This document shows, in pieces, positions 1-48,284 of a stretch of 64,000 nt of DNA. Positions within the stretch are counted from its first letter, which is position 1, and every line of letters starts with the position of its first letter. Origin of the DNA: Sphingobium aromaticiconvertens. GTDB lineage: Bacteria; Pseudomonadota; Alphaproteobacteria; Sphingomonadales; Sphingomonadaceae. The notes under the pieces are model-generated. The model saw nothing but the letters and a program-made list of their open reading frames with translations, had not been told where the DNA came from and searched no databases. The position numbers were made by a program, and so were the translations under genes. The stretch lies in NCBI RefSeq assembly GCF_037154075.1, contig NZ_JBANRJ010000002.1:62001-126000 (forward strand). Direction: 5' to 3'.

Positions 1-313
1 GGATCGGCCGTCGGCGCCAAGCCGAGTGTGGAACCGCATCGGCGACGACATCCAGGACCAGATCGTGGAACTGGCGCTGGAAGAGACCGATCTGAGCCCC
101 CGCGAACTGGCGGTGCGCTTCACCGACGAGAAGCGCTACTTCGTGTCGGAATCGACGGTTTACCGTCTGCTGAAGGCCCATGATCTGATCACCAGCCCGG
201 CCTATGTCGTGATCAAGGCCGCCGATCAGTTCCACACCAAGACCACCCGGCCGAACGAGATGTGGCAGACTGATTTTACCTACTTCAAGATCATCGGTTG
301 GGGCTGGATGTAC
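1..313 (+). pseudogene. IS3-family orfB fragment (internal piece, cut by IS407-type element)
   Basis: An internal piece of an IS3-family transposase B subunit. It starts before the window and stops at 313, where the IS407-type terminus begins. The same nucleotides recur at 27751-27926 and 29457-29594, in the copy that is itself split by an IS1182 element. It covers the end of the helix-turn-helix region and the first catalytic Asp region (WQTDFTYF). The rest of the integrase core is missing, so it is inactive. Confidence 0.9.
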
Positions 314-4424: not shown

Positions 4425-4938
4425 CTACCGGATCAGCACCGTCACCCCCAGCTTTTTTATGCCCCCCAAGAAGCGGCGATGATCGGCGATGACCTCGTTG
4501 CCCATCCGTACGACGATCCGGTCGGCATAGGCGCGGACCTGGACTGCACGACGCACGGCCTTGGCGGCAACCGAGTAGCGGTTCCGGTCGAAGCTGATCA
4601 GGCAGGTCCCGCTGACCGCGTGCTGCGTCTCATGGAAGCCGTCGAACGGTGCGAGCATCGGCTGTAGCGCAGGCCGTTCCAACTCCAGCGCCTGCGCGAC
4701 CGTCATCTCCTTGTGCTCGGGGTGCGCATGCATCGCTGCCCAGCGCAGGCACTCGGCCTCCAGCCAGCCGTTCAGCTCCTCCAGACTGGCGAACCGCAGC
4801 CTGGGCTTGAAGAAGCGCCCCCGTATCGTCTGCACCTGGTGCTCGACCTGACCCTTCTCCCAGCCGGCCGCCGGCGAGCACGCGGTTGGCTCGATCATAT
4901 AGTGGTCCGCCATCACCAGGAAGCGACGGTTGAACACG
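4425..4938 (-). pseudogene. istA: istA C-terminal piece
   Basis: The C-terminal part of an IS21 IstA (ATP-independent DDE transposase subunit). It contains DHYMIEPTACSPAAGWEKGQVE, where the Glu of WEKGQVE is the last catalytic acid, and the beta-barrel tail (NRYSVAAKAV). It is cut at 4938 by the intact IS21 element. TSD copies AACACG lie at 4933-4938 and 7312-7317. Removing the insertions rejoins it in frame with the two upstream pieces. Confidence 0.9.
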
Positions 4939-27599: not shown

Positions 27600-27926
27600 G
27601 GTATCCCGCATCTGAGAAGCTCGAGATCATCAGGATCGTCGAGCAGTCGCATCTGCCCGCCAAGCGGACGCTGGATAAGCTCGGTATCGCCCGCCGGACG
27701 TTCTACCGCTGGTATGATCGCTACCTTGAAGGCGGGCCGGAGGCGCTGGAGGATCGGCCGTCGGCGCCAAGCCGAGTGTGGAACCGCATCGGCGACGACA
27801 TCCAGGACCAGATCGTGGAACTGGCGCTGGAAGAGACCGATCTGAGCCCCCGCGAACTGGCGGTGCGCTTCACCGACGAGAAGCGCTACTTCGTGTCGGA
27901 ATCGACGGTTTACCGTCTGCTGAAGG
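27597..27926 (+). pseudogene. IS3-family orfB, N-terminal half
   Basis: The first 110 codons of OrfB, starting MRYPASEKLEIIRIVEQS and ending VYRLLK, where the IS1182 element begins. It contains two helix-turn-helix segments (RTLDKLGIARRTFYRWYDRY and LSPRELAVRFTDEKRYFVSESTVYRLL). It continues at 29456. Confidence 0.9.
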
Positions 27927-29455
27927 GCGTATTCTGTTGAAGAAGTCAGCTGCGAGACCGTTTGACTGCGCTTCGCGATGGACGCGAGCGACGTCCTTTG
28001 CCGATCAGGCCGGTGCGGGCCTGGCCATCGGGATGATCTTTGCCATTTTGCGGAGGTTCTGTGCCGCTGCGGCGAGGTGGAACTCGTCTCTTGCGCCATT
28101 GGGGCCGCGCAGGCGCAAGCGATCCAGCTTCAGGATGCGCTTGAGGTGGGCGAACAGCATCTCGACCTTCTTGCGCTGGCGACGTGAGACGAGATACGCG
28201 TCGGTGGTGGCGATGTCGCGGGCCAGATCGCGCGCGCCTTCGTGGATCGATCGGGTGACCTTGCGAGCGGGCATGTTGGGCGTGCATCGCTGGCGCAGAG
28301 CACAGCTCTGGCAGTCCTGCTGACGCGCGCGGTAGCGGATCGAACCGTCCTTATCGACGCGATCACGGGGCGTGCTGAAGTTGCGGTTGGAACGCCGTAG
28401 GCGGTTGCCGACCGGGCAGATGTAGCTGTCGTCATCATGGTCATAGACGAAGTCGGCGCGCTCGAAGCTGCCGTCAGTCCGAGCGGACTTGTCGAACACC
28501 GGAATATGCGGCTCGATGCTCATCTCTTCGACCAGCCAGGCCAGGTTGGGGGCAGAGCCATAGGCGGTATCGGCCACGAGGCGCTCGGGCCAGATGCCGA
28601 AGCGATCCTGCGTTCGCTCGATCATCCTGCGCTGGGCGGTCACCTCCGCCTGCCGCACCGAGGTGGTCGCCTCGACATCGACGATGACCGCATGATCGAG
28701 GTCGATCAGATAGTTGGTGCTGTAGGCGTAAAAGGCCGCCTCGCGCGTGGCGGCGGTCCAGCGCGAGGCTGGATCGGTGAGATTGATCCGCTTGGGTGTC
28801 ACCGGCGTTGCACCGCCGAACGCCGCATCGTCCAGCACGTCCAGATACTCAGCGACCGCACGACCGACCGCTTCCGGCGGCAAGCCCTCTTCACCCGGCA
28901 CCGACCGTTGCCGGTGGACATCCGCCCGGATCAGGCTCGCATCGACCGCAAAGCCTTCGCCGCCGACCAGTCCTTCGGCCATGCAGCGCGCCACCGTCAT
29001 CTCGAACAGTTGCCGCAGCAGATCGCTGTCGCGGAAGCGTCCATGCCGGTTCTTCGAGAACGTCGAGTGATCGGGCACGTCGCCCTCCAGCCCCAGCCGG
29101 CAGAACCAGCGATAGGCGAGGTTGAGATGCACCTCGTCACACAGCCGTCGCTCCGACCGGATGCCCATGCAATAGCCGATGATCAGCATCCGGATCATCA
29201 ACTCTGGGTCGATCGATGGCCGACCCGTCTCGCTATAATAAGGCCGCAGGTGCTCGCGGATATCCGACAGGTCCACGAACCGGTCGATCGAGCGTAGCAG
29301 ATGATCCGGCGGCACATGCCGCTCCAGATTGAAGCTGTAGAACAGCGCTTCCTGCGCCACCGTCCGCTCGCCCATCATCGGATCATCTCCGCTCGCCTAT
29401 GCAGAGTGAATCAGACCTTCAGCGCCACTTCAAGCGCAAGTTTTTCAACAAAATA
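27927..29455 (-). mobile_element. IS1182-family element
   Basis: An element of about 1.53 kb. Its edges share TATTCTGTTGAAGAA and, inward from the other end, TATTTTGTTGAAAAA. Comparison with the uninterrupted orfB at 1-313 places the junctions at CTGAAGG (27926) and AGGCCCATG (29455). The target duplication is at most 2-3 bp, so the exact ends are uncertain by a few bases. Confidence 0.82.
28005..29378 (-). CDS. IS1182-family transposase
   Basis: A 457-aa transposase. It has an N-terminal DUF772 domain (VPPDHLLRSIDRFVDLSDIREHLRPYYSETGRPSIDPELMIRM, YRWFCRLGLEGDVPDHSTFSKNR), then FAVDASLIRADV (Asp) and LVADTAYGSAPNLAWLV (Asp). A Cys-rich CPVGN...CQSCALRQRC segment and the C-terminal RRQRKKVEMLFAHLKRIL (Glu) complete it. 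The frame is intact. Confidence 0.92.
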   Translation of the reverse strand: MMGERTVAQEALFYSFNLERHVPPDHLLRSIDRFVDLSDIREHLRPYYSETGRPSIDPELMIRMLIIGYCMGIRSERRLCDEVHLNLAYRWFCRLGLEGDVPDHSTFSKNRHGRFRDSDLLRQLFEMTVARCMAEGLVGGEGFAVDASLIRADVHRQRSVPGEEGLPPEAVGRAVAEYLDVLDDAAFGGATPVTPKRINLTDPASRWTAATREAAFYAYSTNYLIDLDHAVIVDVEATTSVRQAEVTAQRRMIERTQDRFGIWPERLVADTAYGSAPNLAWLVEEMSIEPHIPVFDKSARTDGSFERADFVYDHDDDSYICPVGNRLRRSNRNFSTPRDRVDKDGSIRYRARQQDCQSCALRQRCTPNMPARKVTRSIHEGARDLARDIATTDAYLVSRRQRKKVEMLFAHLKRILKLDRLRLRGPNGARDEFHLAAAAQNLRKMAKIIPMARPAPA

Positions 29456-30107
29456 GGCCCATGATCTGATCACCAGCCCGGCCTATGTCGTGATCAAGGC
29501 CGCCGATCAGTTCCACACCAAGACCACCCGGCCGAACGAGATGTGGCAGACTGATTTTACCTACTTCAAGATCATCGGTTGGGGCTGGATGTACCTGTCG
29601 ACCGTGCTCGACGACTTCTCGCGCTACATCATTGCCTGGAAGCTGTGCACCAACATGCGAGCCGAGGACGTGACCGACACGCTGGACCTCGCGCTCAAGG
29701 CCTCGAGCTTGGACAGCGCCACCGTGCTGCACAAGCCCAGGCTGCTCAGCGATAACGGCCCCAGCTACATCGCGGGCGAACTGGCGGAATATATCGAGGC
29801 CCGGAAAATGAGCCATGTGCGCGGCGCTCCGATGCATCCCCAGACCCAGGGCAAGATCGAACGCTGGCACCAGACCCTGAAAAACCGCATCCTGCTGGAA
29901 AATTACTTCCTGCCCGGCGACCTCGAAGCCCAGATCGAGGCCTTCGTCGAGCACTACAACCACCAGCGTTACCACGAGAGCCTGAACAACGTGACGCCCG
30001 CCGATGCCTACTTAGGCAGGGCGCCGGCGATCATCCAACAGCGTGAAAGGATCAAGCGACAGACCTTCGAACATCGGCGCTTGCAACACCGCAAGCTCGC
30101 CGACTAA
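29456..30107 (+). pseudogene. IS3-family orfB, C-terminal half
   Basis: The continuation of OrfB from AHDLITSPAYVV to the stop. It carries the DDE core: WQTDFTYFKIIGW (Asp), LLSDNGPSYIAGEL (Asp), QTQGKIERWHQTLKNR (Glu), and the tail HRRLQHRKLAD. The frame is whole once the IS1182 insertion is removed. Confidence 0.9.
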
Positions 30108-30234
30108 CATCAACCCCCAGACGAGGCCCGCACTCCGCTAATCTACGCCGAGAGTTGTGCCGAATGTTCTGACGACGGACAAGAGCACACTCAAGACCGG
30201 TCACTCACCGTCCAGACAAGGTGGGACCCGCCGG

Positions 30235-38748: not shown

Positions 38749-40302
38749 GTGTCGGACGCAGGCCTTTCCACCGCTGATAAAGACGCTCGGATCGCCGAGC
38801 TCGAAGCTGCTTTGGCGGCCGCCCACGCCGATATTTCTGCCCGCGACATCCTGATCGACACGCTGCGCGTGCAGATCGCGCGCCTCAAGCGGATGCAGTT
38901 CGGCAAGTCGTCCGAGAAGCTCGACACTCAGATCGCACAGCTTGAGCTTGCGCTCGAAGAGCTCGAAGGCGAGGCCATCGTCGCCGCCGCCCGCCGGGCC
39001 GATCCGGCAGAGGTTGATCGGCCGTCGCCTGTTCGTGCGCTGCCTGCTCATCTGCCGCGGGAGGAGCAGCGGATCGAGCCCGAACAGGACAGTTGCACCT
39101 GTCCAGATTGCGGCGGAGCGCTGCGGCCTCTGGGGCAGGATAGCGACGAGATGCTCGATGCCGTGCCAGTGCAATGGCGTGTCGTTCGGACCATCCGGCC
39201 CAAGTATAGCTGCCGGTCCTGCGAGAAGATCGTCCAGGCGCCCGTGCCGGTAAAGGCGATAGCGCGCGGCAAGGCGACCTTCGGCACGCTGGCCCACGTT
39301 GTCGTCTCCAAGTTCGACCATCATCTGCCGCTTTACCGCCAGGCCGAGATCATGGCTGCGCAGGGGGTCGAGATCGACCGATCGACACTGGCGGGCTGGG
39401 TAGGACAGGCATCCGTGCTGCTCGACCCGATCGTCAGTCGCATTCGCGAGGTGGGCCTCACCGCCTCAAAGATCCATACCGACGATACGCCTGTTCCCAT
39501 GCTTGATCCGGGCCGGGGCAAGACGGCCACCGGCAGGCTTTGGGCTTACGCCGTCGATGATCGTGGCTCGGGCGCTACGACCCCCTCGCTCGTCTGGTAT
39601 GAGTTCACCACCGATCGCACCGGTGCGCATCCCCAGCGTCAGCTGGCCAACTTCGCCGGCTACCTGCAGGCTGATGGTTACGCCGGTTATGACAAGCTCT
39701 ACGACACGAACCGCGTCACCGAGGTTGCTTGCTGGGCGCATTTCCGGCGGAAGATATTCGACATCCACGCCACCAAGCCGACGCCGCTCACCACCGACCT
39801 GCTAGAACGCATCGGCCAACTCTATGAGATCGAGGCAGAGGTTCAAGGCCAGCAACCCGAGATCCGCCGACGAAGCCGGCACGACCGCACTCAGCCGTTG
39901 ATCGATGAGCTGCGGCAAGCACTTGACGATGCCCTGCGCCGCCTCTCGCCCAAGTCCGAGATGGCGAAAGCGATCGCCTATGGCCGCAAGCGCTGGGTGG
40001 CGCTCACGCGCTTCCTCGATGATGGGCGTCTGGAGATCGATAACAACATTGCGGAGCGTGCCATGCGATGCGTGGCCTTGGGCCGTAAAAACTGGCTGTT
40101 CGCCGGATCAAAGGCAGGCGGCGATCGGGCGGCCGCCATCTACTCCGTTATCGAAACCGCAAAGCTCAACGGCCTCGAACCACAGGCCTATATTGCCGAC
40201 GTTATCGCCAAGATCGCCGGCAACTGGCCTGCCGCTCGCTGTTATGAACTCATGCCGTGGAATTGGCGACCAGATCAGCAACCGATCGCCGAAGCCGCCT
40301 GA
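38749..40302 (+). CDS. tnpC: IS66 TnpC transposase
   Basis: A transposase of about 517 aa. It has an N-terminal coiled coil (KDARIAELEAALAAAHADISARD), a zinc-binding CTCPDCGGAL and YSCRSCEKIV pair, DDE residues in IHTDDTPVPMLDPG (Asp) and YLQADGYAGYDKLY (Asp), and the C-terminal LEIDNNIAERAMRCVALGRKNWLF (Glu). A GTG start at 38749 was chosen; an in-frame TTG lies 30 bp upstream. Confidence 0.92.
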   Translation: MSDAGLSTADKDARIAELEAALAAAHADISARDILIDTLRVQIARLKRMQFGKSSEKLDTQIAQLELALEELEGEAIVAAARRADPAEVDRPSPVRALPAHLPREEQRIEPEQDSCTCPDCGGALRPLGQDSDEMLDAVPVQWRVVRTIRPKYSCRSCEKIVQAPVPVKAIARGKATFGTLAHVVVSKFDHHLPLYRQAEIMAAQGVEIDRSTLAGWVGQASVLLDPIVSRIREVGLTASKIHTDDTPVPMLDPGRGKTATGRLWAYAVDDRGSGATTPSLVWYEFTTDRTGAHPQRQLANFAGYLQADGYAGYDKLYDTNRVTEVACWAHFRRKIFDIHATKPTPLTTDLLERIGQLYEIEAEVQGQQPEIRRRSRHDRTQPLIDELRQALDDALRRLSPKSEMAKAIAYGRKRWVALTRFLDDGRLEIDNNIAERAMRCVALGRKNWLFAGSKAGGDRAAAIYSVIETAKLNGLEPQAYIADVIAKIAGNWPAARCYELMPWNWRPDQQPIAEAA

Positions 40303-40703: not shown

Positions 40704-41933
40704 CTAGACCGGGATCAGATCCTTAAGCGCCAGACCGGTATCAACAAGCTGCTCCGGGCTGACGCAAACATTCGCCTCGACCAGCTTGCGGCCCTGCACG
40801 TAATCTTTGACCATGTTCACGCAGTCTAGTGCAATTACTCGTCCCTGTTTGAGGTACAGCACCGAGAAGCTTCGCACCGCGGGATCACCGCGAACCACTG
40901 TTTGATCGTAGCCTAATGAGAGCCCCGCGGTTTGCAGGCGCAGGTCATATTGATTGGACCAAAACCATGGAAAGGCTCGGTACGGCTGGGGATCGCCGCA
41001 GATTGTCTTGGCTACGCAACTTGCTTGATCGTTGGCATTCTGCACCGATTCAACGCGCAACACCCTACCATCGGCGAAGCTGCACGAAAAAGAAGCGCAA
41101 TCACCGATGGCGAAGACATCCGGCAAAGAGGTGCGGCAATATTCATCGACCGTGACACCCCCGTCTCCAGCTGCGCCAGCCTCTATCAGCGGCGCTACGG
41201 CTGGTACAATCCCAATGCCGACAATCACTGCCTGTGCGGGCAAGACACTGCCGTCTCCCAGCCGCACCCCTGTAACTGATTCCTGCCCTTCCAGGGCTGC
41301 CACCGTAATGCCGGTCCGCAGATCGACACCATGTCCTCGGTGTTCATTCTCGTAGAAAGTGGAGAGTTCAGTCCCAGCAACGCGCGCCAGAACCCTCGGC
41401 ATCGCTTCAAGTAAGGTAACATGGCAATTCAACTTGGTCAGAACGGCAGCAGCTTCGAGGCCGATGTAGCCGCCGCCGACGACAACGACCTGCGTCAAAC
41501 CGCGATCGATTTCAGCCATCAGCCTGTCGCAATCGGCTCGAGTTCGGATGGCGTGTACACCTGAAAGCTCCGCTCCAGGGCAAGCCAGCTTGCGCGGATC
41601 ACCACCCGTGGCCCAAACAAGCTGGCCGTAAGCGAAGGCTGAACCGTCCGAAAGCGTGAGGACCTTGGAACCGGGGTCAACAGCACTCACCTCAATACCT
41701 AGAGTGAGATGAATGTCTTTTTCGCGCCAAAATTCCGGGGGGCGTATGTAGAGGCGCTCAAACGATTTCTCTCTGGAGAAATATTCTTTGGAAAGCGGTG
41801 GCCGTTCGTAGGGCACTTCGTTTTCGCGACCGACCAACGCGATCGAGCCTTCGTACCCAGCCTGACGGAGCGCAATTGCGCACTGGGCACCGGCATGGCC
41901 AGCTCCAACGATGACAACGTCCGCTGATCTCAC
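40704..41933 (-). CDS. redA2: NAD(P)H-dependent ferredoxin reductase of the dioxygenase system
   Basis: A 409-aa FAD-containing putidaredoxin-reductase type flavoprotein that passes electrons from NADH to a [2Fe-2S] ferredoxin. The FAD motif is [16 protein letters not shown] (G10-G15). The second Rossmann motif is [17 protein letters not shown] (about residues 149-165), and [11 protein letters not shown] is the FAD-ribityl-binding end. The C-terminal dimerisation domain is typical of the family. It matches RedA2, described as the class-I P450-type reductase of the RW1 dioxin dioxygenase. The start is GTG with AGGAAAG upstream. The symbol rests on family and context. Confidence 0.85.
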
Positions 41934-42018: not shown

Positions 42019-42909
42019 CTATCCGAGCAGCGGGAGGCCCATGATCTCACGCGCCTCATCAGGGGTAGCTGGCTCGAGCCCCAATTCACGGATGATGCGC
42101 ACGATCCGATCGACCTGCTGCACATTCGTCGCGAGTTGCCCGCGCTCGTAATAAAGATTGTCTTCGAGGCCGACACGTACATGCCCGCCCAGTAGCAACG
42201 AAAGAACTCCTGCATTGAGCTGGGCCGGCCCGACCGCACTTACGTTGAATAACGAGCCTTCAGGCAGGATATCAACCATTTGCTGCAGAATCTTCGGCGA
42301 GTAAGGCAATGCGCCTTGGAATTGGTTGACGCCAAGCACGACATTTATGAAATAAGGCGCTTTGTCGAGCCCTTCCTTGATGCAAGCAACGACATCCTGG
42401 AGCAGATGCGTCGGGCTGAACACTTCCCATTCGGGCTTGATGCCCTTTTCCTGCATCTTGATCGCCAGTTCGCGACAGCGCGACGGCGACGTATTCATCA
42501 ATATCTCTTTGCCATCGAAAGAAGCAACGATGGTTGTGGGATCCAGCGTGCACATTTCTGCGCCAGCTTCGATCCCTTTGATGCGCTCTTCCCAAAGAAT
42601 TTCCCAATAGCCGTTGGCCGCCTGGCGCACCATATCGCCATGAACGCCGCCGCCAGTCGAATTGTTGAGAACAATGTTGCAGTGCGAGCGAATGCGCTCA
42701 TTGATGTCACGGTAGATGGCGGGATTGCAGGTTGCCCCGTCGTCTTCTGGCCTTCGCGCATGAACCGCAACGACGCTCGCACCAGCATTATAGCAGCGGT
42801 ACACGTCATCGGCAATTTCCTGGGGCTGTGTTGGAAGCGCAGGATTCTGCGACTTGAGCGCCATCCCGCCGGTTGGCGCGACTGTGACAATAACTTTGCG
42901 TGCAGCCAC
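42019..42909 (-). CDS. BKACE family protein (3-keto-5-aminohexanoate cleavage-like, DUF849)
   Basis: A 296-aa zinc-dependent beta-keto acid cleavage enzyme. BKACEs condense a beta-keto acid with acetyl-CoA and split it. It has [11 protein letters not shown] at the start (usually IxxAxTG), the metal His region [33 protein letters not shown] and the C-terminal EARE motif. The start is GTG with GGAGAGG upstream. The substrate cannot be read from the sequence; in this setting 3-oxoadipate or a C5/C6 beta-keto acid are reasonable guesses. It follows redA2 with an 85-bp gap on the same strand. Confidence 0.82.
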
Positions 42910-42946: not shown

Positions 42947-43126
42947 TGTCCGTCGTCAGAACATTCGGCACAACTCTCGGCGTAGATTAGCGGAGTGCGG
43001 GCCTCGTCTGGGGGTTGATGTTAGTCGGCGAGCTTGCGGTGTTGCAAGCGCCGATGTTCGAAGGTCTGTCGCTTGATCCTTTCACGCTGTTGGATGATCG
43101 CCGGCGCCCTGCCTAAGTAGGCATCG
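42947..43126 (-). mobile_element. IS3-family remnant (3' end of orfB and terminus)
   Basis: The same nucleotides as 30002-30181, inverted: terminus TGTCCGTCGTCAG at 42947, the untranslated tail, and the last 35 codons of orfB (ADAYLGRAPAIIQQRERIK to the stop). It is fused to the ppdK fragment, which now ends on the orfB stop at 43021. Confidence 0.92.
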
Positions 43127-43737
43127 GCGGGGAAGGGCTGGCCATGAGTGTCCTCAACAAGCTTCTTGTAGCATTGAACAAGTGCTTGCCAGTCCTGTGC
43201 GGTCATTTCTAGGTCATTGGTATAGCCAAAATGTTCCTTGATGATTTCGAGCGCTTCCTCGAACAGGTGGTGATCGAGGCCGAGGACGACGTCGGAATAC
43301 ATCTGGATGAAGCGGCGATAGGAGTCCCAGGCAAAGCGGTCGTCGCCCGAGGTTTTCGCGAGGCCGAGCACGGTCTGATCGTTGAGGCCGAGGTTGAGCA
43401 CGGTGTCCATCATGCCGGGCATCGAGACGCGGGCGCCGGAGCGTACCGAGACGAGCAGCGGATCGGACGCGTCGCCAAACTTCTTGCCGACGGCCGTTTC
43501 GATGTGGGCGAGCGCGGCGGCGACTTCGGCGTGGAGCGAATCGGAGAAGTTGGCGCATTCCTTCAGGTAGCGGCCGCATTCCTCGGTGGTAATGGTAAAG
43601 CCGGGGGGGACAGGTAGGCCGATGCCGGCCATTTCCGCGAGGTTTGAGCCCTTGCCGCCGACGATGGTCTTGTCGCGGCTGCGTGGATCACTGCAGCGCT
43701 CTCCACCGCCGAAGCGGAATACGCTTTTCGTCGTCAT
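43021..43737 (-). pseudogene. ppdK: ppdK N-terminal fragment fused to an IS3 orfB tail
   Basis: The first ~204 residues of pyruvate phosphate dikinase followed by 34 residues of IS3 OrfB in the same frame. The PPDK part has VFRFGGG, the ATP-grasp signature IVGGKGSNLAEMAGIGLPVP, and LLVSVRSGARVSMPGMMDTV. The full enzyme is near 880 aa, so the swivelling phosphohistidine and pyruvate domains are missing and it cannot interconvert pyruvate and PEP. The start overlaps the aldolase stop by 4 nt, so ppdK was once the next gene of the lower meta-pathway operon. Confidence 0.9.
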
Positions 43738-44759
43738 CGCGCTTTTACCATGTCCAGCGCGATATCGACGATCATGTCTTCCTGTCCGCCAACCATCTTG
43801 CGGCGGCCCACTTCGGCCAGGATCGAACGGGTATCCACACCGTAATCGCTACTGGCCTTTTCCGCGTGACGCAGGAAGCTGGAATAGACCCCGGCATAGC
43901 CCAGCGTCAGCGTCTCGCGGTCGACACGGACGGGGCGGTCCTGCAACGGACGGACAAGATCCTCGGCCGCATCCATCAGTGCGAACAAGTCGCAACCGTG
44001 GTTCCAGCCCATCCGGTCGGCAGCGGCGATAAACACTTCGAGCGGGGCATTGCCCGCGCCAGCGCCCATCCCGGCCAGGCTGGCATCGACCCGGACCACA
44101 CCGTTCTGCACCGCCACGATCGAGTTGGCGACGCCCAAGCTGAGGTTATGGTGAGCGTGAACACCACGCTGGGTCTCGGGTTTGAGAACCCGGTCATAGG
44201 CCTGGCAACGCGCGGCGTATTCATCCATGTTCATCGCCCCGCCGCTGTCGGTGACGTAGACGCAGTGTGCCCCGTAGCTTTCCATCAGCAGCGCTTGCTC
44301 AGCAAGCGCCTCGGGATCGATCATGTGGCTCATCATCAGGAAGCCCGAGACATCCATGCCGAGATTGCGGGCGGCCTCGATATGCTGCTTGCTGACATCG
44401 GCCTCGGTGCAGTGCGTCGCGATGCGGACCGAGCGCACACCCATCTCGTAAGCGTGCTTCAGATCGTGGACCGTGCCGATACCCGGCAGCAGCAGTGTGG
44501 TGAGCACCGAATGCTCGAGCACTTCGGCAACTGCGCCGATCCAGTCCCAGTCGGTGTAGGCACCAAAGCCGTAGTTGAAGCTTGAGCCCTGCAGGCCGTC
44601 GCCATGCGCGACCTCGATCGCATCGACCTTGGCCCGGTCGAGTGCGCGGGCGATCGCCTGGACATGATCGAGGCCATACTGGTGGCGGATCGCATGCATC
44701 CCGTCGCGCAGGGTGACGTCTTGAATATAGAGCTTTTGCATGTTGGGATCGAAACTCAT
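43734..44759 (-). CDS. dmpG: 4-hydroxy-2-oxovalerate aldolase
   Basis: A 341-aa class II (Mn2+) aldolase of the BphI/DmpG/MhpE family. It cleaves 4-hydroxy-2-oxopentanoate to pyruvate and acetaldehyde. The HMGL-like TIM barrel has the catalytic R18/D19 in DVTLRDG and H22. [10 protein letters not shown] follows, then the metal-binding [12 protein letters not shown]. The C-terminal communication domain ([25 protein letters not shown]) channels acetaldehyde to the dehydrogenase. It overlaps the dehydrogenase gene by 4 nt, consistent with a stable enzyme complex. Confidence 0.94.
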
Positions 44760-45697
44760 GTCGTGGCTCCTTCATGCATGCGGGCAGCGATCTTCTCGGC
44801 GGTTTTCATCGCCGCCGAGGTCATGATGTCGAGGTTGCCGGCATAGGACGGCAGGTAGTGAGCCGCGCCTTCGACCTCAAGGAACACCGAGACCTTGAGC
44901 CCGGTGTATTCGCCGTCCATCTCCGGGATCTGCAGAGGGCGGTTGGAGCCGATGTGCTCGAACTGCACCGCCTGCTTGAGCCGGTAGCCCGGGACATAGC
45001 TCTGCACTTCGGCAACCATGTCGTGAATGCTCTGGCGGATCGCCTCCTGGTCGGCATCCTCGCACAGACAATAGACCGTATCGCGCATGATCAGCGGCGG
45101 TTCGGCCGGGTTGAGGATGATGATCGCCTTGCCGCGCGTTGCCCCGCCGACATCCATGATCGCCTGGCTGGTGGTCTCGGTGAACTCGTCGATGTTGGCA
45201 CGGGTACCGGGGCCAGCACTCTTCGAGGCGATCGAGGCGATGATCTCGCCGTAGTGAACCTTGGCCACCCGGTTCACCGCCGCGACGATCGGGATCGTCG
45301 CCTGCCCGCCGCAAGTCACCATGTTGACGTTGAGCGCATCGAGGCACTTGTCACCGTTGACCGGTGGGATCACGTAGGGCCCGATGGCTGCCGGGGTGAG
45401 GTCGATCATCCGCTTGCCCGCCGCCAGCACCAGTTCGCTGTTACGTTTGTGTGCCCCGGCACTGGTCGCGTCGAAGACGATCTCGACATCGGCAAATTCG
45501 GGCATGGCGAGCAGGCCATCGATCCCCTTATGCGTGGTCGCCACCCCCATCCGTGCGGCGCGGGCCAGCCCGTCGCTGGCGGGATCAATCCCTACCATCA
45601 CGCCCATCTCGAGCACTTCTGACAGGCGCATCACCTTGATCATAAGGTCGGTGCCGATGTTGCCCGAGCCGATGATCGCAACCTTTTTCTTGCCCAT
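44756..45697 (-). CDS. dmpF: Acetaldehyde dehydrogenase (acylating)
   Basis: A 313-aa CoA-acylating aldehyde dehydrogenase (BphJ/DmpF/MhpF) converting acetaldehyde, NAD+ and CoA to acetyl-CoA. The N-terminal Rossmann motif is [13 protein letters not shown], the catalytic Cys is C129 in [12 protein letters not shown], and [17 protein letters not shown] and ILNPAEPP are family-specific. It is translationally coupled to the aldolase and starts 2 bp after the hydratase stop. Confidence 0.94.
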
Positions 45698-45699
45698 GG

Positions 45700-46482
45700 T
45701 CAGGCTCCGGCGAATGTGAAGGAACAGGTTCCGATCCCGGAGATTTCGGCACGGACTTCGACGCCTGGCTTCAGCGAAACCATCGGGCCGAGAGCCCCAG
45801 CGAGAAGAATATCGCCGGCCTTAAGCGGCTCGCCCCGTTCGGCTAGCGTCCGAGCCAGCCACGCGGCTGCATTGAGCGGATTACCGAGCGCCGCAGATCC
45901 GACGCCTGTGGACGCGACCTCTCCGCTCACGGTCATAGCCATCTTGGCGCCTTCCAGATCTAGATCTGCGAGGGGTAGACCTTCACCAGCCAGCACAAAA
46001 AAGGCCGAGGAGCCGTTGTCGGCAACGGTGTCCGCGAAAGTGATCTTCCAGTCGGCAATTCTGCTGTCGACGATCTCGATCGCGGCATGCACCGTGGCGA
46101 CGGCAGCGGCTACCTCGGCAGGGGTGGAGAGTGGTGAGAGAAGGTCGCCCCCAAGCACAAAGGCGATTTCCGCCTCTGCCTTGGCTTGGATACATTTGCT
46201 CGGATCGAGTGTTCCTCCATCCGGCACACGCATGTCTTCGAACAGGACGCCAAAGTCCGGCTGGTCGACGCCCAGCTGTTTCTGTACAGCCTCGGCCGTG
46301 AGTCCTGCCTTGCGTCCCACGATCCGGCGACCCTGGCTTTCCCAGAACCGCGTGTTGATTTCTTGCACAGCATAAGCGCCAATCGCGTCGGTCGGCTCGA
46401 GATAATCGCGCAGCGGCGCGAGCGGGGCCTTTGAATAAGCATCACGGAGTAACCGAGCAGCAGTTTGCAATTGTGGATTCAT
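45700..46482 (-). CDS. dmpE: 2-oxopent-4-enoate (2-hydroxypenta-2,4-dienoate) hydratase
   Basis: A 260-aa member of the BphH/DmpE/MhpD hydratase family, adding water to 2-hydroxypenta-2,4-dienoate to give 4-hydroxy-2-oxovalerate. It has [25 protein letters not shown], the metal-binding acids in [12 protein letters not shown] and IEIVDSRI, and the ending [15 protein letters not shown]. The substrate is the C5 acid released by DxnB from the dibenzofuran meta-cleavage product. It is the first gene of the operon. ATG 46482 was chosen by the conserved N-terminal helix; an upstream in-frame extension is not family-like. Confidence 0.92.
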
Positions 46483-46585: not shown

Positions 46586-47371
46586 ATGACTACCAGGCAA
46601 TCATCGACCTTGGCTAAAGGGCTGAGGCTCCTGCATGCCATCGTTTGCGACGGTGGGCATTCGACGCTGACCGAGCTCGCCCGGCAGGAAGCAATACCGC
46701 TTGCCACCGCACACCGGCTTGCCGCGACGCTCGAGGAGGAGGGGTATGTCGACCGTTTGACACGGGGATGCTTTTTGCCCGGACGAGTGCTGATTGATCT
46801 TCAGTTGGCTCGGCCAGATCCAACGCAGCGACTCGCCTCACGCCTCCGGCGCCCGCTCGGACGGCTTGCGAGACGGCATCGGGTCCTGCTGCATTTCGGC
46901 ATTTTGGAAGACGGTATGGTAACGTACCTGGTCAAAGAGAATGGCGGAGAGGTCGATCTGTTCACCGCGGAAAGCATGCAACTCGAAGCCTACTGCTCGG
47001 CAATTGGGAAAGTGCTGCTTGCGGCTTTACCGTCTAAGCAGCTGGACAACTATCTGCGAGCGGGGCCATTTGTCGCTCTCACCCCCAACACCATAACCAA
47101 TCCGGACGCGATTCGTGGTGAACTGGAAGTTGTCCGGGAAGCCGGCTTGGCGTTTGATCGGCACGAAATAAGAGAGGACCTTTACTGCTTTGCCATTCCG
47201 GTCTCCGGCCCTGACGGCAATGTCATCGGCGCGTTGTCGTCGAGCTTCATGGGCTCGGCGCCGCCAGCGGCGCTGTTCCGACAATTGCATCGATCATTGA
47301 GACGGCTCGCGGCCGATGTTGCCCACGAAGCCCCCGCACAATCGTCTGGGTTCAGAGCCGACCTTGGTTGA
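46586..47371 (+). CDS. IclR-family transcriptional regulator
   Basis: A 261-aa IclR-type regulator. The N-terminal winged helix-turn-helix spans about residues 7-70 (STLAKGLRLLHAIVCDGGHSTLTELARQEAIPLATAHRLAATLEEEGYV). The C-terminal effector domain has YCSAIGKVLLAALP, EVVREAGLAFDRHEIREDLYCFAIPV and GNVIGALSSSF. It is divergent from the hydratase-dehydrogenase-aldolase operon, so it probably controls it in response to a pathway intermediate. Confidence 0.9.
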   Translation: MTTRQSSTLAKGLRLLHAIVCDGGHSTLTELARQEAIPLATAHRLAATLEEEGYVDRLTRGCFLPGRVLIDLQLARPDPTQRLASRLRRPLGRLARRHRVLLHFGILEDGMVTYLVKENGGEVDLFTAESMQLEAYCSAIGKVLLAALPSKQLDNYLRAGPFVALTPNTITNPDAIRGELEVVREAGLAFDRHEIREDLYCFAIPVSGPDGNVIGALSSSFMGSAPPAALFRQLHRSLRRLAADVAHEAPAQSSGFRADLG

Positions 47372-48284
47372 GACGCTGGTTATCGGGGCGGGAGCAATCG
47401 GGAGCTTTGTTGCGGCACGATTGCATCGCGCCGGCAACGAGGTCACGCTGCTCGCGCGCGGGCGGCGCCTTGATCAGTTGCGAAGGGAGGGGCTGCGGAT
47501 TGCCTCTGCAAGCGGGTTCGAGACGGTCCAGATTCCGGCTCTCGAATGGGATCAACTCGAGGGGTGGCCGCGCCAGTCCATCATTTGCACCAAGACCTGC
47601 GATCTGCCGCACGTTCTGGATCGGCTGCGCATCCTGCCGGGGGCGTCAGGCAGGATAGTGACGTTGCAAAACGGAGTAGAAGCGCCGGACCAGGCAGCGC
47701 GAAGCTTGTCCGATTCGACTATCCTCGCTGGGCGCGTCCATGGATTTTTCGAGCTTCGCGAGGGCACGGTCCGGCACGTTGGGGTCGATCCGGATATTTT
47801 GCTGGGCCGAACGGCAGGACCGGACGAACGGGCCGTCGACCAGGTTGTTCAGCAACTCAAAGCTGCAGGAATAGCAAGTGCTGTCGCCCAAGACATTCGT
47901 GTCGAACTATGGCGCAAATTGCTGCTCGCAGCATCGCTTGGCGGAGTAGCGAGTTACCTGCGCATACCGGCAGGAAGCGTGATGTTGAGCCCTTGCTCCG
48001 CGGCGATGTTGCGCAGAGCCATGGCCGAGGTATCTGCGCTTGCGCGGGTTTCGGGAATTGATCTGCCTTCGGACTGCGTCGACCGCACACTTATTTTTAC
48101 GGCAAAGTTCCCTCCCGACGCAACAACTTCGCTCCAGCGCGATCTCATGGCTGGGCGAACGAGCGAGTACGATGCTCTGGTGGGGGCGGTGGTTCGCCTC
48201 GCCCGTTCCCGAAACGTGCCGGTTCCGACGTTTCTGGAAATTGATCGCGCGTTGTTCTCAGCTGGATTTGGCAATCGCACCTGA
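47316..48284 (+). CDS. ApbA/PanE-family (2-dehydropantoate 2-reductase-like) oxidoreductase
   Basis: An NADP-dependent 2-keto acid reductase-like protein of 322 aa if the ATG at 47316 is used. The Rossmann start LVIGAGAIGSFVAARLHRAGNEVTLLAR is clear. The C-terminal ketopantoate-reductase helix domain has the Lys in VELWRKLLLAASLGG. The frame overlaps the IclR gene by 56 nt; a TTG at 47364 would give an 8-nt overlap and a more typical N terminus. PanE for pantothenate is unlikely on a catabolic plasmid. A role in reducing a branched or keto-acid side product is a guess. Confidence 0.8.
   Translation: MLPTKPPHNRLGSEPTLVETLVIGAGAIGSFVAARLHRAGNEVTLLARGRRLDQLRREGLRIASASGFETVQIPALEWDQLEGWPRQSIICTKTCDLPHVLDRLRILPGASGRIVTLQNGVEAPDQAARSLSDSTILAGRVHGFFELREGTVRHVGVDPDILLGRTAGPDERAVDQVVQQLKAAGIASAVAQDIRVELWRKLLLAASLGGVASYLRIPAGSVMLSPCSAAMLRRAMAEVSALARVSGIDLPSDCVDRTLIFTAKFPPDATTSLQRDLMAGRTSEYDALVGAVVRLARSRNVPVPTFLEIDRALFSAGFGNRT

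Follow-up and report, generated by a model that had tools for sequence, protein, structure and literature searches.

A lower meta-pathway operon in the stretch of DNA analysed here (64 kb, called the window throughout) ends in a truncated gene for pyruvate, phosphate dikinase (PPDK). Is this ppdK piece what remains of a working member of the operon, or did it come to lie behind the aldolase gene dmpG in some other way, and could its product still matter to the cell?

The ppdK remnant and its joint with an IS3 element

Adjacent genes for the aldolase and an acylating acetaldehyde dehydrogenase place the operon in the lower meta-pathway (Table 1). The DmpG reaction releases pyruvate and acetaldehyde. 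The hydratase-like gene is annotated in RW1 as 4-oxalocrotonate decarboxylase, and it reaches neither model's cut-off. Relatives of the divergent iclR gene are also found at loci L049, L053-L055 and others, and a ketopantoate-reductase-family gene recurs beside ppdK/dmpG clusters (window 47316-48284, L059:5657-6604, L045:11653-12666). IS elements are numerous in this region.

Table 1. Window coordinates of the operon, its neighbours and the two IS ends
Feature	Position	Strand	Basis
ferredoxin reductase redA2 (Swit_4920)	40704..41933	-	domain match, RW1 annotation; name from PMC3425912
BKACE-family gene directly behind IS end (Swit_4921)	42019..42909	-	domain match, RW1 annotation
IS3 right end, ISSsp2 group (final 185 bp of 1523 bp, with the terminal repeat and the 35 C-terminal transposase codons)	42947..43131	-	alignment to complete copies
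ppdK remnant, first 203 codons (part of ATP-grasp domain)	43129..43737	-	profile and structure matches
ATGA overlap, ppdK start on dmpG stop codon	43734..43737	-	sequence
dmpG, 4-hydroxy-2-oxovalerate aldolase (Swit_4923 in RW1)	43734..44759	-	TIGR03217, E 1.5e-172, above cut-off
dmpF, acylating acetaldehyde dehydrogenase	44756..45697	-	domain match
2-keto-4-pentenoate hydratase-like gene	45700..46482	-	best NCBIfam NF008461 hydratase, under cut-off
IclR-type regulator, divergent	46586..47371	+	domain match
identical IS right end elsewhere in the window	29997..30181	+	self-comparison of window

The open reading frame called behind dmpG (43021..43737, minus strand) encodes 238 amino acids. Residues 4-207 match positions 2-199 of the 865-position PPDK model TIGR01828 (E 1.5e-77), and solved PPDK structures are matched as well, with E values down to 1e-57. 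The score of 261 bits falls below the curated cut-off of 843 bits, so the ORF is not a full-length member of this family. PPDK_N is the one domain present, and this match is partial, with the ATP-grasp domain cut; a domain search of the ORF found neither the phosphohistidine domain (PF00391) nor the PEP-binding domain (PF02896). A protein that lacks the phosphohistidine and PEP/pyruvate domains cannot work as a PPDK, and the product should be inactive.

As the first-pass annotation had stated, ppdK starts inside the aldolase stop codon, the four nucleotides ATGA being common to the two genes. After 203 codons the truncated gene continues in frame into the end of an IS3 transposase. The overlapping stop and start make dmpG-ppdK a candidate for translational coupling. 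The transposase part comprises 35 residues, not the 34 initially counted.

The IS3 cap itself was confirmed by comparison with other copies. Positions 42947-43131 are 100% identical to window positions 30181-29997, without a mismatch in 185 bp, and 17 further copies of this tail occur in the genome at 89% identity. Alignment of 10 of the 17 delimits an element of 1523 bp (TGTCCG...CGGACA), outside of which the flanks differ, and in these 10 copies the right end corresponds to the base at window position 42947, which fixes the terminus of the cap. The transposase C-terminus and the terminal repeat are placed as in complete copies, which assigns the fragment to the ISSsp2 group of IS3; pCAR3 carries a related element under the name IS3-like ISSsp2. 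The left end of the junction element is lost. The second ISSsp2-group copy (window 27751-30181) is itself broken by another insertion at 27927-29454, and window positions 1-313 carry an uninterrupted version of the stretch broken there.

How the two parts were joined had been attributed to a 12-nt microhomology, CCCGCCGATGCC. This motif is IS sequence and is absent from all 86 distinct ppdK stretches (99 loci). In register, the bases common to the ppdK stretches and the joint number two in 81/86, three in 4/86 and four in 1/86. We therefore rejected joining driven by 12 nt of microhomology at this site: relatives match the joint in register by 2-4 bases only. Illegitimate deletions ordinarily show joints of this kind, with 2-4 bp shared.

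The same locus on plasmid pSWIT02 of strain RW1

The window lies on a contig of 191,523 bp. Comparison with the first 50 kb of pSWIT02 of Rhizorhabdus wittichii RW1 gave five long blocks of 99.87-100% identity, which add up to about 45 kb of the window (10226-58187). The matching stretch includes the dxnA1A2, dbfB and redA2 regions. Because the window genome and RW1 are placed in different genera (g1 and g97), identity of this degree points to recent plasmid transfer. At window positions 40069-40076, RW1 has ∼2.6 kb of extra sequence with a serine recombinase gene (Swit_4918); the extra sequence sits inside an IS66 transposase gene that is intact in the window, and 8 bp are common to both flanking blocks.

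The ppdK/IS junction is the same on pSWIT02, where the ORF is Swit_4922, annotated as 'Pyruvate, phosphate dikinase'. For the RW1 annotation, our analysis means that Swit_4922 should be read as a stump rather than as a PPDK. Table 1 of PMC3425912 lists the cluster 4922-4925 with values for Swit_4923 (dmpG) only, namely 11.47-fold for dibenzofuran versus PHE and 0.13 for salicylate versus dibenzofuran. According to the same source, transposon insertions hit all of Swit_4923-4925, and these genes thus seem non-essential for that growth. Induction of Swit_4923-4925 is reported in PMC4911050. The available text of PMC3425912 and PMC4911050 does not discuss Swit_4922, and the former does not describe it as a truncated PPDK.

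These data bear on the idea that the 238-residue chimera has been retained as a functional protein, e.g. to act as a small ATP-grasp fragment or to regulate either PPDK or the aldolase. The frame stays open across the junction, the codon pattern is still ppdK-like (see below), and the gene directly upstream, dmpG, is induced on dibenzofuran (PMC3425912). Nevertheless, the frame would be kept by chance in 1/3 of cases, the partial PPDK_N match means that the ATP-grasp domain itself is cut, and, among the matches listed, the 275-codon frame is common to the RW1 copy only. We regard a functional chimera as very improbable.

An intact dmpG-ppdK operon and the origin of the remnant

The first-pass annotation had proposed a search of sphingomonad genomes for intact dmpG-ppdK operons, reasoning that, if no genome held an intact ppdK next to dmpG, the piece would have arrived by rearrangement. 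One such operon exists, in the Novosphingobium MAG HKST-UBA127 (L059; JAGREL010000263, a contig of 8.8 kb). The gene order is hydratase (78% identical), dmpF (88%), dmpG (91%), ppdK and a ketopantoate-reductase-family gene. The L059 ppdK encodes 908 amino acids with all three PPDK domains and scores 1349 bits against TIGR01828, above the 843-bit cut-off. With the ORFs as listed, 157 bp separate dmpG from ppdK, and hence the 4-nt overlap is not common to the window and L059.

This layout is very rare. L059 is the one locus among 80 named dmpG loci with ppdK behind dmpG, and none of the 80 loci in a second set has it (<1000 bp of sequence follows dmpG in 3/80 and 4/80 of these loci, respectively). 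The second set consists of the best 80 of the 128 matches listed, after the window's and the RW1 pSWIT02 copies, and includes another dmpG of the window genome as well as two chromosomal ones from RW1. The sets overlap by ten identical genes and together contain 148 distinct dmpG genes, one of which is followed by ppdK. These counts led us to reject a frequent dmpG-ppdK layout, and the intact version is no more than a candidate for the ancestral arrangement expected earlier. A search of the open-access literature found nothing on the dmpG-ppdK pairing.

At other loci, dmpG is followed, for example, by a ketopantoate reductase relative (L049, L230, L258) or by a redA2-like reductase gene (L085, L241; 2.1 kb behind in L252). 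In L241 (3111-4340) and L085 (9095-10303), both from other sphingomonads, the redA2-like gene codes for a ferredoxin reductase and immediately follows dmpG, so redA2 may once have been part of the operon, with ppdK, the IS element and the BKACE-family gene coming in between later.

Three ppdK searches placed the gene beside glyS at 28/29, 27/28 and 29/29 loci (84/86 in all; 75/76 distinct genes). An intact chromosomal ppdK next to glyS is present in both the window genome (G000) and RW1. That of the window genome is 67% identical to the remnant, and the remnant reaches at best 78% identity to the other sphingomonad PPDKs compared. No glyS-linked ppdK was found among the matches in the L059 MAG, which may be incomplete. 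A second ppdK candidate in that genome (L330, a 55% match), the start of which is unlike PPDK by eye, was left out of the counts.

In the tree, the remnant occupies a long branch, and its grouping with Novosphingobium genes is weak (87/78 support). The L059 gene is not placed as its sister; holding the two together lowers the log-likelihood by 10.1 (p-AU 0.27), and the tree thus neither supports nor rejects a single lineage. The codon pattern of the remnant, (pos1+2)/pos3, is 0.81, within the 5-95% range of other ppdK pairs (0.53-1.07; 2475 pairs of other rows with similar third-position divergence). Judged from this pattern, the truncation looks recent relative to the divergence of the remnant.

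It is conceivable that ppdK was already truncated on arrival, a rearrangement having brought a stray piece of its N-terminal part next to dmpG in a lineage that never had a working dmpG-ppdK operon. The occurrence of the layout in 1/148 distinct dmpG genes, the IS-dense region and the lack of support for a single clade of the remnant and L059 (p-AU 0.27) would all fit such an origin. A random junction would hardly produce a fragment whose first codon is precisely the ppdK start and overlaps dmpG by ATGA, however, and the sole ragged end is the IS side. Together with the intact operon in L059, these features make arrival as a stump unlikely.

We favor, as the probable explanation, a rare operon variant in which PPDK was added to a pyruvate-releasing aldolase and which has decayed here through a deletion between ppdK and the IS element. 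On a plasmid, a lower meta-pathway operon of the order hydratase - dmpF - dmpG would have gained ppdK behind dmpG, with the ATGA overlap. A deletion would then have fused ppdK codon 203 to the interior of a downstream IS3 element, removing ∼685 ppdK codons, 1338 bp of the IS and anything between, and leaving the IS end as a cap. In the intact state, PPDK made from the same message would turn aldolase-derived pyruvate into PEP, providing a local gluconeogenic entry. The 238-residue product is presumably inactive, and the cell has the chromosomal glyS-linked ppdK. Several findings count against this explanation, namely the rarity of the layout, the small MAG contig that carries the L059 operon and its lack of an overlap, the absence of a sister grouping, and the 5/9 displaced lineages without an aldolase described below.

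Displaced ppdK genes and comparison with known operons

We termed a ppdK copy displaced when it does not lie behind glyS. Nine displaced lineages were seen, a count that leaves out TomTYG64, whose match has the same length and identity as that of RC1, and plasmid records outside the sphingomonads. An aldolase-family gene lies within two genes of ppdK in 4/9 lineages (window/RW1, L059, pLA3 and the pNL1 type), compared to 0/86 loci of the three ppdK searches; numbers are small and sampling is uneven here, with flanks of 7-8 kb for most displaced copies versus 1.5 kb for the 86 loci. For window/RW1 and L059, the neighbour is dmpG. On pLA3, ppdK is two genes after a NahE-type protein (trans-o-hydroxybenzylidenepyruvate hydratase-aldolase match, E 6e-110). 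The pNL1 type (pNL1, pF2, p4, S. fuliginis KK22 p1) has a full-length ppdK and then a DHDPS-family gene; DHDPS-family genes need not release pyruvate.

No aldolase was found nearby in the other five lineages. Dioxygenase pieces are near the NBWT7 copy, and a dioxygenase beta subunit, an alcohol dehydrogenase and a transporter (by eye) are near that of G294; the CFD-2 gene spans the start of its record. The remaining two, like the window copy, are broken (3/9 displaced lineages), so loss recurs as well. A plasmid of Sphingobium sp. YC-XJ3 carries a ppdK stump of ∼142 codons that ends beside IS6100 (L042:8009-8497). On pTomRC1a of Sphingobium sp. RC1, a decayed ppdK (L333:6935-10398) retains residues 4-175 in two frames and the last 35 residues. 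This stump has CoA-transferase genes on one side and, on the other, a PEP carboxylase gene that it directly precedes, and the locus is possibly a former pyruvate-PEP-oxaloacetate unit. In Sphingobium sp. PNB, a displaced full-length ppdK is found among aromatic-degradation genes, and in the text available from PMC4048848 the authors state that its role could not be determined.

Ordinary decay without metabolic meaning would be another account, with ppdK in catabolic clusters a neutral and transient passenger. It agrees with the presence of ppdK behind 1/148 distinct dmpG genes, with the nearly constant presence of the glyS-linked copy, and with stumps in 3/9 displaced lineages. Against it stands the proximity to an aldolase-family gene (4/9 versus 0/86, with small n and unequal flanks), as does the RC1 stump, whose immediate neighbour, a PEP carboxylase gene, likewise belongs to the pyruvate/PEP node. 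We consider a passenger role quite possible, though short of probable.

A broader proposal is that recruitment of a second PPDK to genes feeding the pyruvate/PEP node is a recurrent event on the catabolic plasmids of sphingomonads, giving a portable 'aromatic-to-PEP' module that is repeatedly lost, the window being a broken example on a dioxin-degradation plasmid. The partners would be DmpG (L059, window), a NahE-type aldolase (pLA3), a DHDPS-family protein (pNL1 type) and PEP carboxylase (RC1). We offer this tentatively and would not yet count on it.

Growth on aromatics yields pyruvate, acetyl-CoA and TCA acids, and sugars must be made from these. Recruitment of PPDK for gluconeogenesis is plausible from the gene order of L059; neither expression nor enzyme measurements came to light for a complete ppdK in a catabolic cluster. 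Placing ppdK in a catabolic operon would put the gluconeogenic step on the plasmid, and the central metabolism of a new host would need no adjusting. The recruitment idea can be tested on the intact operon of L059 and on the clusters of pLA3 and pNL1.

Set beside known systems, the window operon is a rare variant in decayed form rather than a system of a new kind. The Swit_4922-4925 cluster of RW1 is the same DNA, junction included. The chromosomal glyQS-ppdK encodes the same enzyme family as the remnant and differs by its linkage to glyS. In pNL1-type clusters, as in the window, a displaced ppdK lies among aromatic-degradation genes, but there it is full-length, and its linked partners are a ring-hydroxylating dioxygenase and a member of the DHDPS family instead of dmpG. 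Lower meta operons of the dmp/xyl/bph type (dmpE-dmpF-dmpG) show the same order of hydratase, acetaldehyde dehydrogenase and aldolase, from the same families, whereas the window operon then continues with a truncated ppdK that overlaps dmpG at ATGA.
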